Shown here: positions 27,066 through 34,090 of the stretch, piece by piece
How the letters are laid out: each line of letters begins with the position of its first letter
Position numbering within the stretch: the first letter of the stretch is position 1
Assembly: GCA_903959175.1 (NCBI GenBank)
Contig: CAJBVW010000019.1
Coordinates: 1 to 57,670 of the forward strand
DNA length: 57,670 nt
Source: an uncultured Pseudomonadota bacterium
Lineage (GTDB): Bacteria > Myxococcota_A > UBA796 > SXON01
Direction: 5' to 3'
The notes under the pieces: generated by a model
The model's database searches: none
Told to the model about the DNA's origin: nothing
What the model saw: only the letters and a program-made list of their open reading frames with translations
Position numbers and translations under genes: made by a program

Positions 27066-27994
27066 CAGACGACCGGCGCCGGGGCGGGAGGTCCGGCGGG
27101 GAAGCGCGCGAAGAGGGCGACCGCGACGAGGAGCAGCACGATGCCGCCGGCGACGCCCATGACGCCGACCACCTGGGGCGCGCCCGCGTGGAGGATGAGC
27201 TCGTGGAAGCCCATCAGCGCGTTGAGGACGCCGTGCGCGACCGCCGCGGCCCACACGGTCCCGCTCGCCTCACGCACCCAGGCGAGGAGCGCGCCGAGCG
27301 GGATGGAGACGCCGATCAGCACGAGCGTGCCCTGGAGCGGCGCGTCGGGGAAGTGCCCGGCGAGCAGGACGAGCGGCGCGTGCCAGATGCCCCAGGCGAG
27401 GCCGATGAGCAGCGCGGCGGGCCAGAAGCCGAGCGGACGGAGCTCGCGGAAGAGCACGCCACGCCAGCCGATCTCCTCGGCGAAGGCGAGCGGCGCGTAG
27501 AAGAACAGGCCGACGATGAGCGCCTGGAACGAGGCGAGGAGCGGGTACGGGACCGAGGAAGCGTCGAGCCCGGCGCGCATCTGGGCCGCGGCCTCCTCCC
27601 CGCGGAGGGAGAGGACGCGCTCGACGATGGGGCCGCCGGTGAGATCGAGGGTGGCCCATCCGAAAGCGTTGGCGACGAACGCCGACGCCCACACGATGAG
27701 CACGGGCGCGAGCCAGGACAGGACGACCACGCCGCCGAAGCGGAGGCTCGTGTCCAGGCTGGAGGCGGGCTCGTGGACGACGAAGCGCTTCCAGAGGAGG
27801 GAGGCGAACAACGGACCGACGAGGAAGGGCACGGCGAGGAGGAGGCTCCAGTAGCCGTCGACCGGGAGGCGAAGGGCGGCGACGAGCGCGGCGATGCCCC
27901 AGCTCCAGGCGAAGACCAGGGCCAGCCACGCGCCCGCGCGGCGGAGGAACGTACGGGAGACGCCCGCTTCGGCCGGATGCGGCTCGGAACTCAA
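27065..27994 (-). CDS. CPBP-family intramembrane glutamic endopeptidase (CAAX/Abi type)
   Basis: The 309-residue polytopic membrane protein has the CPBP motifs: FAEEIGWRGVLFRE (EExxxR), then GIWHAPLVLL and AHGVLNALMGF. Eight or so membrane helices are visible. Family members cut prenylated proteins, process peptides or sort surface proteins. There is no ATG near the N-terminus; TTG 27994 overlaps the preceding stop by 4 nt (TTGA). It sits between a UshA-like cytochrome gene and tsaD. Its substrate cannot be told from sequence. Confidence 0.87.
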   Translation of the reverse strand: MSSEPHPAEAGVSRTFLRRAGAWLALVFAWSWGIAALVAALRLPVDGYWSLLLAVPFLVGPLFASLLWKRFVVHEPASSLDTSLRFGGVVVLSWLAPVLIVWASAFVANAFGWATLDLTGGPIVERVLSLRGEEAAAQMRAGLDASSVPYPLLASFQALIVGLFFYAPLAFAEEIGWRGVLFRELRPLGFWPAALLIGLAWGIWHAPLVLLAGHFPDAPLQGTLVLIGVSIPLGALLAWVREASGTVWAAAVAHGVLNALMGFHELILHAGAPQVVGVMGVAGGIVLLLVAVALFARFPAGPPAPAPVV

Positions 27995-29508
27995 TGGGTC
28001 ACCTTCGGGAGGTAGGTCGCGTGGTCGAAGCGCCCTCCGTCTTGCTTGCCGTCGTGACAGTCGACACAAACGGAGACGTCGGGCTTCGCAATCATCTCCA
28101 CCGTCGGCGGCTTGGCAACGTGCGCCTTGCCGGGACCGTGACATGCCTCACACCCGACGGCCTCGAGGCCCGCGACGGCGCCGGGATCCTGGGGGCCGTC
28201 CGGATGGAAGGCGCCGGTGACGTGGCAGGAGTAGCAGGAGCGATCGCGCTCGTTTCCCGCCGTCACGAGCGTGCTCCAGGCGCGGGAGTGGGCCGTACCG
28301 CCCCACTGGGCCGCCTGCTCGGCGTGGCAGCCCGTGCACGCGGAGGAGCCGGCGAAGGGGCTGTTCGCGAGGGCCGAGACGGTGGACACGGGCTCGGCGG
28401 CCTGGATCGCCACCTTCGCCTTCGCGACGAGCGCGGCGGTCGCGGCGTGGTCGGCGATGTCCGTTCCGAGGTCGACGAGGCGGTTGGTCACCCGGTGCGC
28501 GGGCTCCTTCGCGGTCGCGGCATCGGTGAGCGAGCCCTCGACCTCCACGAGCTTCCCCTCGAAGAAGCTGACCTGCTTCCCGATGCGCTCCCGCGTGGGG
28601 TCGTCCTTCGCCTCGGACTGACGCTTCTTCAGCTCGGCGACGCGGTTGCGGTAGCTCTCGCGCTGGTCCGCGAACTGCTGCAGGGCCTGACCGTCCCGCC
28701 ATTTGGTCGCCCCTGGAGTGAGCGTGTACGAGATCACGCCGACCTGCTTGCCGCGCGAGCCCGCCGCGAGGAGCATGCCCCCGTTCGAGAGCGCGTCCGG
28801 ACGCTCGAGCTGCTTGCGCTCCTGGCCGTTGACGATGAGGGAGACCGTCGGGAAGGTCGCGGCGAGCGCCTCGTCTTCCTGAACCTTCTGGCCCGAGAGG
28901 ACCACGATCACCCCCGGCGGGGCGGCGGCGATGGCGGCGCGCGCGGCGGCCATCGGCTCGGTGGCCCGGCAGCCGGGCTCCTTCGCGGAGTTCCCCACCA
29001 GGCCGATGACGGTGAGGGTCTGCCCGCCACGGTCGACCGACACGGAGGCCGGGAACGGGTTGGAGCCGCCACAGTCAAGGTTCGCGGCGACGTACGGGAG
29101 GGAGTAGGCAGCGGCCAGCTCTCGTACGGTCGCGATGCCGAGGGCGAGGTCACCGGCGCCGGGGAGCATGGCGTCCACGCCGACGAGCGCGTAGCCCTCG
29201 GCGAGGAGCCGCGCCTTCTCGAGCTGCTGCGCGCGCTCGGTGTCGCGGAGCGTTGCCCGGCCCCAGAAGAGGTTGCCGGCGTCGAGCACGACGACGGGGC
29301 CGTCCTTTCGGAGCCCCTCAATCACGGTGTTTCGTCTGGACAGACCGCCCATGGGATGTTTGGGTCAACCACAGGGCTCGATCTCGCCGTCCACGTTGCC
29401 CGTGTAGGCGAGGGTGAGCGCGCCGGGAGGCGCCACGGGGACGTCGGGCGCGCCGCACGCGGTGAAGGCCAGCGCGACGAGGGCGACCATGCGGGGTCCG
29501 AACCTCAC
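27991..29508 (-). CDS. UshA-like tetraheme cytochrome lipoprotein, probable selenoprotein (in-frame TGA at 29365-29367)
   Basis: Read through one TGA, this is a 505-residue lipoprotein. It has a signal with lipobox FTAC (Cys18), a calcineurin/UshA-like region and a C-terminal cytochrome with four CxxCH motifs near residues 391, 425, 453 and 481. The TGA is codon 48 in GEIEPCG-TGA-PKHPMGGL; related proteins as I remember them have EPCGC there, so the TGA replaces a Cys codon. GTG 29508 overlaps the DUF4340 stop (GTGA), the habit of this genome. Starting at ATG 29352, after the TGA, would remove the signal peptide that a c-type cytochrome needs. A SECIS-like hairpin follows the TGA. I recall that a 'UshA-like (seleno)protein' family name exists, unverified. 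The alternatives are a nonsense mutation or a base error. Confidence 0.8.
29337..29367 (-). promoter_or_regulatory. Putative bacterial SECIS element at the in-frame TGA
   Basis: After TGA (29367-29365) come 13 nt, then a stem UGGGC/GUCCA (29351-29347 with 29341-29337, five pairs including one G-U) closing a GGUCU loop (29346-29342). The loop and its distance of 18 nt from the TGA match what I remember of E. coli fdhF, where the SelB contacts are the loop G and U. Confidence 0.6.
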
Positions 29509-30983
29509 TTCTTCATCTCGGCACGCTCGGACTCGATGCGTGAGCGGCGCTCGGTCTTCTCGTCGTCGCCCGTCGCCTTACGACGGTGCTCGCGAAGGAG
29601 GTCCTTCACCACGTCGATGACGCCGCTGTCGATGATGTAGACCTCAGGGAACTCCAGGGCGCGGGCGTAGAAGCGCTCTCGCTCGTGGCCCTCGGGGTCC
29701 GTGACGGGCGAGGCGTTCTTGCCGACGACGACGGTGCGGGCCTCGCCGCTGCGGTCCGTCATCACGATGGTCGCACGGGGGGACTCGAAGCCGTACTCGC
29801 TGCCCTCGGCGACCTCGGCCACGAACTCGTCCGCCTGAACATTCGCCACGCGGGTGGCGAGGCGCTTCGGGGTGCTGCCGGGGACCGGCACGCCGGTGTC
29901 CCATAGCCAGGTGTCGGCCTCCATCGTCACGGTCACGGTGCCGGTGAGATCGGGGTCGCGCTCGTCCCCGGCGTAGGTCGTCACCATGGAGGCGAGCGTG
30001 TTCGGGTCCATGCGCGCGAAGCGCTTGAGCCGGAAGGTCTCGGGCTCCGCGAGGTAGTCGTCGAGCAGGCCGTCGCGGGCGGCGTAGATGGTCGGCTCGT
30101 CCGCGAGCTTGACGTAGGCGAGGGCGTACTCTCCGTCCTTCTCGCCGGTGACGCCGCCGAGGAGCAACGTGAGGGGGTCGCGGCCAGAGAAGCGGATGGT
30201 GATCTGGGCGCGCGGCGCGTCCAGGCCGTACTTCGCGAAGTCGGTCGTGTCCTCGGTGACGAAGTCGACGGCCTTGAGCGCCGAGACGCGACCGAGGAGG
30301 CCGCGGATCTCGCTGTCGTTGGCAGCGAAGGCCTGCGGCGCGAGCATGTCCCAGCTGTTCTCGCCGGTGCGCTGGAAGGCGAGCCGCTTGCCCCCCGGGA
30401 GCTCGGCCGCGAGGGCGTCGACGTCCTTGCTGTCAAAGGAGGCGAAGCGCCGCTCTCGGAACTCGGCGAGCGAGAGGCTGTAGTAGTCCACCGCCGACTT
30501 CTTCACGGTGTAGACGGCGGTGTCGCCCGACTTCCGGATGTAGAAGCTCACGCCGGACGGGTTCGGGTCGCCGGCGTCGAACTCCTCGGTGGAGCCGTCG
30601 CGGAAGGTGAGCTTGACGTGGATGGTGCTGTTGCCGAGGCCGTAGAGGGCGTCGTCCGCGGGGCCGTCCACGACGCTGGCGCGCGCGACGAGGTCGTGGA
30701 GCTGGTGCTTGACGCGGTTGACCATCGAGCGGCTTGCGCGGAGCTCCTCTCCCTCCAGCCACCACCCGTCCGCGCGCTCGGCGAGCACGATGGCGCCGTC
30801 GGGCCGGGTGACCTCGACCTTGACGAGGTTCGCCTTCTCGAAGACGAAGATGGGCTTCTCGTTCTCCTTGAGGGCGGCCTTGCGCTCGGCGGGAGTGAGC
30901 TCGGCGGGGCGGACCATCCACCACGCGCCCAACAGGCCGAGCAGCGCGACGAGCGCCAAGAGGGTGCCGCGAAAGTTCTTCAT
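29505..30983 (-). CDS. DUF4340 domain-containing protein
   Basis: The 492-residue protein has one N-terminal membrane anchor (LLALVALLGLLGAWW) and a large extracytoplasmic region with repeated strand modules. They have the form 'FVFEKANLVKVEV', 'FAKYGLDAPRAQITIRF' and 'EYGFESPRATIVM', typical of DUF4340. ATG 30983 has GGGAGGAAG 6-8 nt upstream. It follows the GldG-like gene by 31 nt and overlaps the UshA-like gene by 4 nt. DUF4340 proteins are recurrent partners of GldG-type ABC exporters; the exact role is unknown. Confidence 0.85.
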   Translation of the reverse strand: MKNFRGTLLALVALLGLLGAWWMVRPAELTPAERKAALKENEKPIFVFEKANLVKVEVTRPDGAIVLAERADGWWLEGEELRASRSMVNRVKHQLHDLVARASVVDGPADDALYGLGNSTIHVKLTFRDGSTEEFDAGDPNPSGVSFYIRKSGDTAVYTVKKSAVDYYSLSLAEFRERRFASFDSKDVDALAAELPGGKRLAFQRTGENSWDMLAPQAFAANDSEIRGLLGRVSALKAVDFVTEDTTDFAKYGLDAPRAQITIRFSGRDPLTLLLGGVTGEKDGEYALAYVKLADEPTIYAARDGLLDDYLAEPETFRLKRFARMDPNTLASMVTTYAGDERDPDLTGTVTVTMEADTWLWDTGVPVPGSTPKRLATRVANVQADEFVAEVAEGSEYGFESPRATIVMTDRSGEARTVVVGKNASPVTDPEGHERERFYARALEFPEVYIIDSGVIDVVKDLLREHRRKATGDDEKTERRSRIESERAEMKK

Positions 30984-31014
30984 GTCGCTTCCTCCCGATC
31001 CGCCGAACCGCGGA

Positions 31015-32469
31015 TCATTGGCCGCGCCTGGACGACCAGACACCCGCGCCCAAGAGGACCGCGAGGAGCGGACCGATGGAGAGCACGAGCCAGCGCACCT
31101 TGCCGAGGTCCTCCGCGGAGAGCGCAAGGCGACGGACCATGCTCGGACGCCCGACGACGGAGAGTCGCCCTTCGTCTCCGAGGAGCCAGCGGAAGGTGTT
31201 GATGGCGAAGCTGGCGTTGCCGGGGCCTTCGGCGAGGAGGCCGTTCGCGATCGCGTCGGCATCGCCGAGGACGACGACGCGAGCGCCGCCGCGCTTGACC
31301 AGCCCGGACTCGGGGCCGAGCTCGAGCGCGAGGGCCATGGCCGCGGGGCCGGCACCGTCGATGTCGGCCTCGAACCTGGCCGCTCCGCTGTCGAGCGCGC
31401 CGCCGCGATCGATCCAGCCGTCGCGCGAGGTCTCGAGGAGAGTGGAGGCGCGGACGCCCTCTTTCGGCGGGACCGAGGCCTGCACGGGCGCGGCGCGCGA
31501 CACGACGGTCACCAGCATCTCGTCGGAGAGATCCTTGGTGATCGGGTGCGACTTGTACCGGGGCACCGGGCGATCGGGGTACGGGAAGACGAGGAGCTTG
31601 TCGAGGACGATACCGTCCGGCACGACCACACCGAGGCGGCCGAGGAGGCTCGGCACGTAGGAGCCGGGCTCCACCGCGACGAGGACCGACCCGCCCGTGG
31701 CGAGGTAGCCGAGGATGAGGTCTTCTTCGAGCGCGGGGATGGCGACGCGCGGACGGGCGATGAGGATGGCCGCGGCGTCGTCGGGGACGCGGGGGGCCAC
31801 CTGATCGCGGTCACGCACGAAGTCGAGCTTCTTGAGGTCGTAGTTCTCCTGGTCGAGCGCAGCGGCGAGCTCGGACAGGCCGTTCGGGTCGTGCCCCTCC
31901 ACGTCGAGCTCGCCGTGGCCGACGAGCGCGTAGACGACGCGCCGGCTGTCGGACATGAGCTGGGAAAAGGCACGGTTTATCCCTGCTTCTCCCAGGAACT
32001 CGATCTTGCGGTCGTCCCCCTTGCCGGAGCGGCGGAAGAGGTCGCGGTCCTGGAGGTCGACGCGGCGGTCGCCGCGCTGGACGACGACGGTGCCGTAGTC
32101 GGTCACACCAAGCTTCTCCGCGGTCAACCTCTCCTTGTCGAAGTCGATGAACCGGGTCTCGACGATCGCCGAGTTGTAGTCCATCTCCTCGAGGAGGTCC
32201 TGGAGCTGGCGGTCCTTGAAGTAGGACTCCTTCTTCCCGCGCTGCGCGGAGAAGGCCGTGACGGTGACCGGCTGCCCGTCCCGGTCGAGGAGGCCGAGCT
32301 TGTTGACCGTGTCGGCGGCGAGGACGCTGCCCTGATCCGCAGATAGATCCAAGCGGATCCGGAAGCGGTCGACCAGGAGGTAGACGACGACGACCGCCGC
32401 GACGACGAGGACCGTCACCGCGGTGGCGTTGGAGCCGACGGCGAGGCGGCGCTGCAGGTTGCGGTTCAT
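31015..32469 (-). CDS. GldG-like ABC transporter auxiliary membrane protein
   Basis: The 484-residue protein has an N-terminal membrane helix (about 14-34), a large extracytoplasmic domain of the ABC-type uncharacterised transporter family (PF09822-like) and a C-terminal helix followed by SSRRGQ. Segments such as YALVGHGELDVEG and ILIARPRVAIPALEEDLILGYLATGGSVLVAVE are typical of GldG. ATG 32469 overlaps the permease stop (ATGA). In Bacteroidota GldG works with GldA and GldF in gliding; homologues in other phyla serve unknown export. Confidence 0.88.
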   Translation of the reverse strand: MNRNLQRRLAVGSNATAVTVLVVAAVVVVYLLVDRFRIRLDLSADQGSVLAADTVNKLGLLDRDGQPVTVTAFSAQRGKKESYFKDRQLQDLLEEMDYNSAIVETRFIDFDKERLTAEKLGVTDYGTVVVQRGDRRVDLQDRDLFRRSGKGDDRKIEFLGEAGINRAFSQLMSDSRRVVYALVGHGELDVEGHDPNGLSELAAALDQENYDLKKLDFVRDRDQVAPRVPDDAAAILIARPRVAIPALEEDLILGYLATGGSVLVAVEPGSYVPSLLGRLGVVVPDGIVLDKLLVFPYPDRPVPRYKSHPITKDLSDEMLVTVVSRAAPVQASVPPKEGVRASTLLETSRDGWIDRGGALDSGAARFEADIDGAGPAAMALALELGPESGLVKRGGARVVVLGDADAIANGLLAEGPGNASFAINTFRWLLGDEGRLSVVGRPSMVRRLALSAEDLGKVRWLVLSIGPLLAVLLGAGVWSSRRGQ

Positions 32470-33176
32470 CGCCACCGGCGCGACTCCAGTGAGCGGAAGG
32501 TCAGGAACAGGAAGACCGCCGTGAAGGCGACGAAGTAGAAGATGTCCGCGCTGTCGAGCACGCCGCGGTTGAACGAGTCGAGGTGGACGAGCACGGAGAG
32601 CGGGCGCACGGTGTCCGCCCACTCTTCCGGCAGGAGCGCCTCGGCCCGGCCCACGAGCCAGAACGGCAGGAGGAGGACGATGCCGACGAGGCCAGCCGCG
32701 ACCTGGTCATCCGTGAGGGAGGAGGCGAACAAGCCCGCGGCGCAGAACGCGGCGGCGACGCCGACCAGCCCGAGGTAGCTCGTGAAGACGACGCCCCAAT
32801 CCGGGTCGCCGTAGTAGGCGAGCACCGCCGGGAAGACGAGCGTACCGAGGAACATCAGGAGGCAGAGCGTCAGCGAGGCGAGCCACTTGCCGAGCACGAT
32901 CGCCCCGAGCGAGACGGGCGCCGTCATCAGCAGCTCGAGCGTGCCGAGGCGGCGCTCCTCAGCGAAGTGGCGCATCGTGAGCATCGGGAGCACGAAGAGC
33001 TGGGTGATCGCGAGGTTCCCGAGGAGGACGCGGAGCGAGGCCTCCCCCGTGAGGGTGACGCCCAGGTAGAAGAACAGGCCCGCCAGGAACAGGAACGCCG
33101 AGAGGAACACGTACGCGAGGGGGCTCACGAAGTAGATCCGCATCTCCTTCTTCCACAAGGTCCAGATCGCCCTCAT
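32466..33176 (-). CDS. ABC transporter permease, GldF/ABC-2 type
   Basis: The 236-residue protein has six membrane helices and an ABC-2 permease layout. It starts with WTLWKKEMRIYFVSPLAYVF, has the conserved RHFAEERRLGTLELLMTAPV loop after helix 2, and ends with FLTFRSLESRRWR. This EERRLGTLE motif is characteristic of NosY/GldF-like permeases. It overlaps both neighbours by 4 nt (ATGA), so ATPase, permease and auxiliary protein are made together. Confidence 0.93.
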   Translation of the reverse strand: MRAIWTLWKKEMRIYFVSPLAYVFLSAFLFLAGLFFYLGVTLTGEASLRVLLGNLAITQLFVLPMLTMRHFAEERRLGTLELLMTAPVSLGAIVLGKWLASLTLCLLMFLGTLVFPAVLAYYGDPDWGVVFTSYLGLVGVAAAFCAAGLFASSLTDDQVAAGLVGIVLLLPFWLVGRAEALLPEEWADTVRPLSVLVHLDSFNRGVLDSADIFYFVAFTAVFLFLTFRSLESRRWR

Positions 33177-34090
33177 TCACGCCCCACGATGGAGACGAAG
33201 GCCTCCTCCAGGGTCGGGAGGCGGTGCTCGAGGGTGCGCACGCGGGCACCGGCCTCGCGGGCGAGCTCGGCGACGGCGGGGCGGGGGTCGACCCGGGCGT
33301 TGAGGCGGAAGGTGCGCCAGGCGCCGTCCGCACCGAGGGGCTCGACGAGATCGACCTGCGGGAGCGCGCCGAGGCGGGGGCCGTCGAGCCCGTCGACCTC
33401 GACGAGGTACCAGTCGCCCCGGGGCGCCATCGCGCGGAGCTCGTCCAACGAGCCCTGCGCCACGAGCTGGCCCTTGGTGATGACCAGGGCGCGCGGGCAG
33501 AGCGCCTCGACCTCGGAGAGGATGTGCGTCGAGAGGATGACGGTGTGCGTGCCGGCGAGGGACTTCACGAGGTCCCGGATGCCGACGAGCTGGGCCGGAT
33601 CGAGGCCGCTGGTGGGCTCGTCGAGGATGAGCACGGGCGGATCGTGGAGGAGCGCCTGAGCGAGCCCGACGCGCTGGCGGTAGCCCTTCGAGAGCGAGCC
33701 GAGGATGCGACGCTCCCAGCCCGAGAGCCCGACGCGCTCCATCACCGAGCCGGTGCGCTGGTGGCGTGCCCGCCCGGTGAAGCCGCGAAGCTCGGCGATG
33801 AACCCAAGGTAGTCGCCGACGCTCAGCTCGGGGTACAGCGGCGGGGACTCCGGCAGGTAGCCGACGCGACGCTTGACCTCCATCGGGGACTCGAAGACGT
33901 CGAACCCCGCCACGCGCGCGTCTCCCCCGGTGGCCGGGAGGAACCCCGTGAGGATCCGCATCGTGGTGGTCTTGCCCGCGCCGTTCGGCCCGAGAAACCC
34001 GACGATCTCGCCCCTTTCGATCGTGAAGGAGACGTTGTTCAGCGCGAGGCGCGGACCATAGGACTTGGTGAGGGCGATGGCTTCAATCAT
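33173..34090 (-). CDS. ABC transporter ATP-binding protein, GldA type
   Basis: This 305-residue ATPase pairs with the permease. Walker A is GPNGAGKTT, the Q-loop is GYLPESPPLYPELSV, the signature is LSKGYRQRVGLAQA (GYRQR form common in ABC-2 drug, Nos and Gld exporters), Walker B is VLILDEPTSGLDP and the H-loop is ILSTHILSE. An approximately 80-residue C-terminal extension follows. ATG 34090 follows a 56-nt divergent gap with no clear promoter box. Confidence 0.94.
   Translation of the reverse strand: MIEAIALTKSYGPRLALNNVSFTIERGEIVGFLGPNGAGKTTTMRILTGFLPATGGDARVAGFDVFESPMEVKRRVGYLPESPPLYPELSVGDYLGFIAELRGFTGRARHQRTGSVMERVGLSGWERRILGSLSKGYRQRVGLAQALLHDPPVLILDEPTSGLDPAQLVGIRDLVKSLAGTHTVILSTHILSEVEALCPRALVITKGQLVAQGSLDELRAMAPRGDWYLVEVDGLDGPRLGALPQVDLVEPLGADGAWRTFRLNARVDPRPAVAELAREAGARVRTLEHRLPTLEEAFVSIVGRE

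Follow-up and report, generated by a model that had tools for sequence, protein, structure and literature searches.

A UshA-like tetrahaem cytochrome lipoprotein gene with an in-frame UGA codon that is very probably read as selenocysteine

Is a TGA at the 48th codon of a tetrahaem cytochrome gene the end of a reading frame, or a site at which selenocysteine (Sec) is inserted? The question is raised by a gene on the minus strand of the window, that is, the whole stretch of 57,670 nucleotides analysed here, from an uncultured bacterium. The frame is opened by GTG 29508 and closed by a TGA stop codon at 27991-27993, and its start overlaps the stop of the upstream gene as GTGA. Along the frame come MRFGPRMVALVALAFTAC, GEIEPCG, the in-frame TGA, PKHPMGGL and then four CxxCH motifs (residues 391-395, 425-429, 453-457 and 481-485). 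The lipobox Cys18 is kept in relatives and is invariant in the alignment. The default open reading frame listing places the gene start at ATG 29352, so that the export signal and the pair formed by Cys46 and codon 48 are lost. The initial annotation had described this frame, from the lipoprotein signal to the haem motifs, and had warned that default calling would drop the signal and the pair; every element was found again on re-reading the sequence, and the listing agrees with the warning. Coordinates are collected in Table 1.

Table 1. Features of the UshA-like gene and of its predicted product, in positions of the window.
Feature	Coordinates	Strand	Remarks
UshA-like tetrahaem c-type cytochrome lipoprotein gene, predicted to contain selenocysteine	27991..29508	-	505 residues with Sec48, GTG start
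Lipoprotein signal peptide MRFGPRMVALVALAFTAC	29455..29508	-	lipobox Cys18
Cys46 codon, partner of predicted Sec48	29371..29373	-	invariant in 42/42
In-frame TGA, codon 48, predicted Sec of the Cys46-Gly47-Sec48 motif	29365..29367	-	
Probable bacterial SECIS hairpin UGGGC-GGUCU-GUCCA	29337..29351	-	loop GGUCU 29342-29346
UshA/5'-nucleotidase/SoxB-like metallophosphatase-fold domain, eroded metal ligands	28699..29421	-	about residues 30-270
Long helical hairpin between the two domains	28513..28686	-	residues 275-332, AlphaFold2 model
Cytochrome c554-like tetrahaem domain	28039..28347	-	about residues 388-490; CTGCH, CYSCH, CEACH, CVDCH

Evidence about codon 48 was obtained from relatives of the gene. 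When 284 genomes of the phylum were scanned for homologues and in-frame TGA codons, exactly one such codon was found in the homologues, scored at full length, of all 18 other genomes of the same family and of all 8 of the same class. A single in-frame TGA is also present in 17 of the 19 same-order genomes among those listed, and none is present in the homologues of the other two; it is absent from most full-length homologues of other classes. Where the sequence was read, the TGA lies at the identical column; genes with TGA encode EPCGU, in one case DPCGU, and those without it encode EPCGC. A motif search of the homologue sequences did not locate EPCGU/EPCGC in L026, L043 and L046. In a second collection the UGA forms belong to Desulfobulbaceae and other Thermodesulfobacteriota, and the Cys forms to Myxococcota, Planctomycetota, Poribacteria, Nitrospinota and others. 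In the gene of the window, UGA thus stands in frame where other homologues have Cys, as expected of a selenoprotein. Since a single in-frame TGA recurs across same-family, same-class and same-order genomes, its occurrence in the window is not due to chance. The initial annotation had pointed to this column and had given EPCGC for related proteins; the homologues do show Cys or UGA there, and most other classes read EPCGC.

The two same-order exceptions (G195:C409:26213-27598 and G200:C63:12278-13717) are full-length homologues without an in-frame stop, and they suggest that Sec and Cys have been exchanged within the order. Separately, one in-frame TGA each was counted in homologues from four genomes of other classes (G098:C71, G206:C15, G226:C219 and G079:C74). 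Their match to the profile is confined to roughly its first 385 positions and does not reach the haem part.

A hairpin with a GU-containing apical loop, as in bacterial SECIS elements, lies just downstream of the UGA. Counting from the U of UGA, its GGUCU occupies positions 22-26, the same positions as the GGUCU of Escherichia coli fdhF (verified in 5,388 genomes of E. coli). Two variants of the hairpin were seen among relatives. One, CUGGGC-GGUCU-GUCCAG or a near form, is found in the order of the window and in many Thermodesulfobacteriota; the other, CCU[C]GGC-GGUCUC-GCCAGG, contains a bulged base and belongs to sister families of the class. GGT encodes the second Gly of LGGL in 36 of 39 UGA genes versus 3 of 61 Cys genes, and it accounts for 13.9% of the other Gly codons in UGA genes; the value computed for this statistic (8e-28) is not a true probability, since the sequences are related. 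We consider this codon choice the strongest evidence for the putative SECIS element. At the outer pair 16/32, U-A replaces C-G in five sequences; covariation of the pairs is moderate overall, and inside the subgroups the pair counts vary too little for covariation to show. The folding energy of the window hairpin, taken alone, indicated no greater stability than that of shuffled sequences. As the hairpin is no stabler than its shuffles and covariation is only moderate, the case for a SECIS element rests on conservation. Two UGA homologues lack GGUCU (L125:833-2374 and L096:5941-7548) and have GGCCU and GGGGU at those positions; they suggest that other SECIS loop sequences exist or, in the case of L125, perhaps that the UGA was gained independently.

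The genome was also searched for the machinery of Sec insertion. It contains selB, which has SelB winged-helix domains and scores 283.9 bits (cut-off 242), selD at 272 bits (cut-off 125) and a whole tRNA-Sec gene (selC) with anticodon UCA, while a profile search of the assembly found no complete selA. The missing complete selA would speak for the TGA being a real stop, a sequencing error or a pseudogene mutation in a gene that once had Cys, with the shorter protein of the ATG 29352 frame as the true product; that frame is also what default calling gives. However, selA scored above the cut-off in 34 of the 38 genomes of the search, including both other genomes of the same genus. The gene is complete in sister genomes, and alignment of the selA region of one of them to the genome of the window revealed that contig C511 ends inside selA and contig C22 starts after it. 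The end of C511 encodes MDPRRSLPSVDRLLRLVPELPRAAATRAARALVAA, which matches the N-terminus of the sister's SelA. Because these contig ends flank the position of the sister's selA, and 35 codons can still be read from the start of the gene, the apparent absence of selA is an assembly gap, and we rejected it as evidence against Sec. Of the four genes that the initial annotation had named as informative, selB, selC and selD are whole, and selA is represented by its first 35 codons only. A real stop or a mutation is also at odds with the presence of the same TGA in dozens of independent genomes, where the remainder of the frame is conserved, and the shorter protein would lack the signal required for export and haem attachment. 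We regard this explanation as very improbable. Two kinds of additional match were discarded in these searches: a second SelB-like match (G000 contig C353:1-1119, L058) is an EF-Tu gene truncated where the contig begins, and the other tRNA-Sec matches are Ser, Leu and Gly tRNAs.

Decoding of the TGA as some other residue, by Trp or Gly recoding or by plain readthrough, is more improbable still, given that non-TGA homologues have Cys, the usual replacement of Sec, at the aligned position, that TGA also terminates genes here (including the UshA-like gene itself and its upstream neighbour) and that the conserved GGUCU hairpin and the tRNA-Sec(UCA) fit Sec decoding. Judging from the sequence data, UGA codon 48 is almost certainly read as selenocysteine, in a member of the NCBIfam family NF041198. 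The initial annotation had assigned Sec to this codon, and the assignment is backed by the Cys/UGA column, by selB, selD and tRNA-Sec, and by the NF041198 score. The UGA would be decoded by SelB and tRNA-Sec, directed by the GGUCU hairpin just downstream, and the product would be a secreted lipoprotein.

With codon 48 entered as C for profile scoring, the protein reaches 291.1 bits against NF041198 (UshA_like_PCGU, UshA-like (seleno)protein; cut-off 275), over profile positions 5-513 of 519, and it contains the PCGU/PCGC (CxU) motif of that family. The EPCGU/EPCGC motif, the UshA-like domain and the C-terminal tetrahaem domain are the same, and nothing essential differs. In the alignment, the same-genus homologue shows 76% identity, the next one 50% and no other more than 43%. 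The gene belongs to a selenoprotein family already described in databases and papers, a fact that the initial annotation did not have: a 2008 survey of Global Ocean Sampling data counted 76 sequences of UshA-like CxU selenoproteins (PMC2398784), and the UshA-like protein (CxU) is listed in reviews (PMC9312934, PMC13188914). No reported function for the NF041198 family was found in the literature. Two other families resemble the protein in part. UshA-like (seleno)protein family 2 (NF049981) is matched over its first 87 profile positions, that is, in the N-terminal part only, with 38.3 bits against a cut-off of 140, and is listed with a CxxU motif, whereas the window protein has CxU. ExtKL (multihaem (seleno)protein, NF040886), another family of c-type cytochromes some of which contain Sec, is weakly matched in the haem region; with 21 bits, below the cut-off of 250, the window protein does not belong to it.

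What the protein does is a separate question. In the window's family, an ABC ATPase, a Gld-type permease, a GldG-like gene and a DUF4340-like gene (window 29505-34090) precede the selenoprotein gene, and tsaD-rsmA-PP2C lies downstream of it across much of the class. The context differs in Thermodesulfobacteriota, so the neighbourhood gives no clear functional hint.

More was learnt from the predicted structure. The AlphaFold2 model, built from a 42-sequence alignment, has a mean pLDDT of 91.2. A PDB comparison of its N-terminal domain gave matches to UshA, CD73 and SoxB, profile comparison agrees, and a Pfam search recognised the cytochrome c554-like haem region. Cyclic phosphodiesterases are also matched by both sequence and fold. 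The protein could on these grounds be a secreted hydrolase of the 5'-nucleotidase/phosphodiesterase type carrying a haem domain, with the Cys/Sec pair in a structural role, a reading that would leave Sec decoding untouched. However, the di-metal ligands of UshA-type enzymes (D-x-H, GD, GNH, H, GHxH) are not conserved. At the ligand positions, taken from a profile alignment to 2Z1A, Asp is present in 20/42 sequences at column 38 and in 10/42 at column 79, His in 7/42 at column 206 and in 9/42 at column 229, and the Asn-His pair of the metal site is replaced. Whereas the Asp, His and Asn positions lack conservation, all 42 sequences keep Cys46, Gly47 and Sec/Cys48, and we consider a hydrolase unlikely.

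UshA, 5'-nucleotidase (CD73) and SoxB thus share the fold of the N-terminal domain, but in the window protein the metal ligands are not conserved, a Cys-Gly-Sec pair has been gained and a haem domain is attached. In the 2Z1A alignment, EPCGU directly follows the loop that bears the D-x-H metal motif of true nucleotidases. The eroded ligands, together with the invariant Cys-Gly-Sec/Cys, suggest that a former nucleotidase fold became a haem-wired redox protein. In such a protein, a UshA/5'-nucleotidase-type fold with most metal ligands lost would carry the Cys-Gly-Sec/Cys pair on a loop adjacent to where the metal site had been, and would be joined through the helical hairpin to the tetrahaem c554-like domain. 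Thiol/selenol redox chemistry could then take place in the cell envelope, with electrons passing to or from the haems. We think a redox role of this kind, with thiol/selenol chemistry wired to haems, rather likely. The fuller proposal, put forward tentatively, is that a metallophosphatase fold no longer has its metal centre and now serves as a selenol/thiol redox enzyme, wired to the tetrahaem module that it carries.

As a discovery the gene is ordinary, since both the family and the presence of Sec in it are already on record. A reading of the raw sequence nevertheless found what is very probably a real selenoprotein gene, one that would be cut short by default gene calling. The family is widespread, and its invariant Cys-Gly-Sec/Cys, set against an eroded metal site, offers a testable guess at its chemistry. 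If the proposal is true, the UshA/SoxB fold would have been put to a new enzymatic use, perhaps with sulfur or selenium species of the envelope as substrates.
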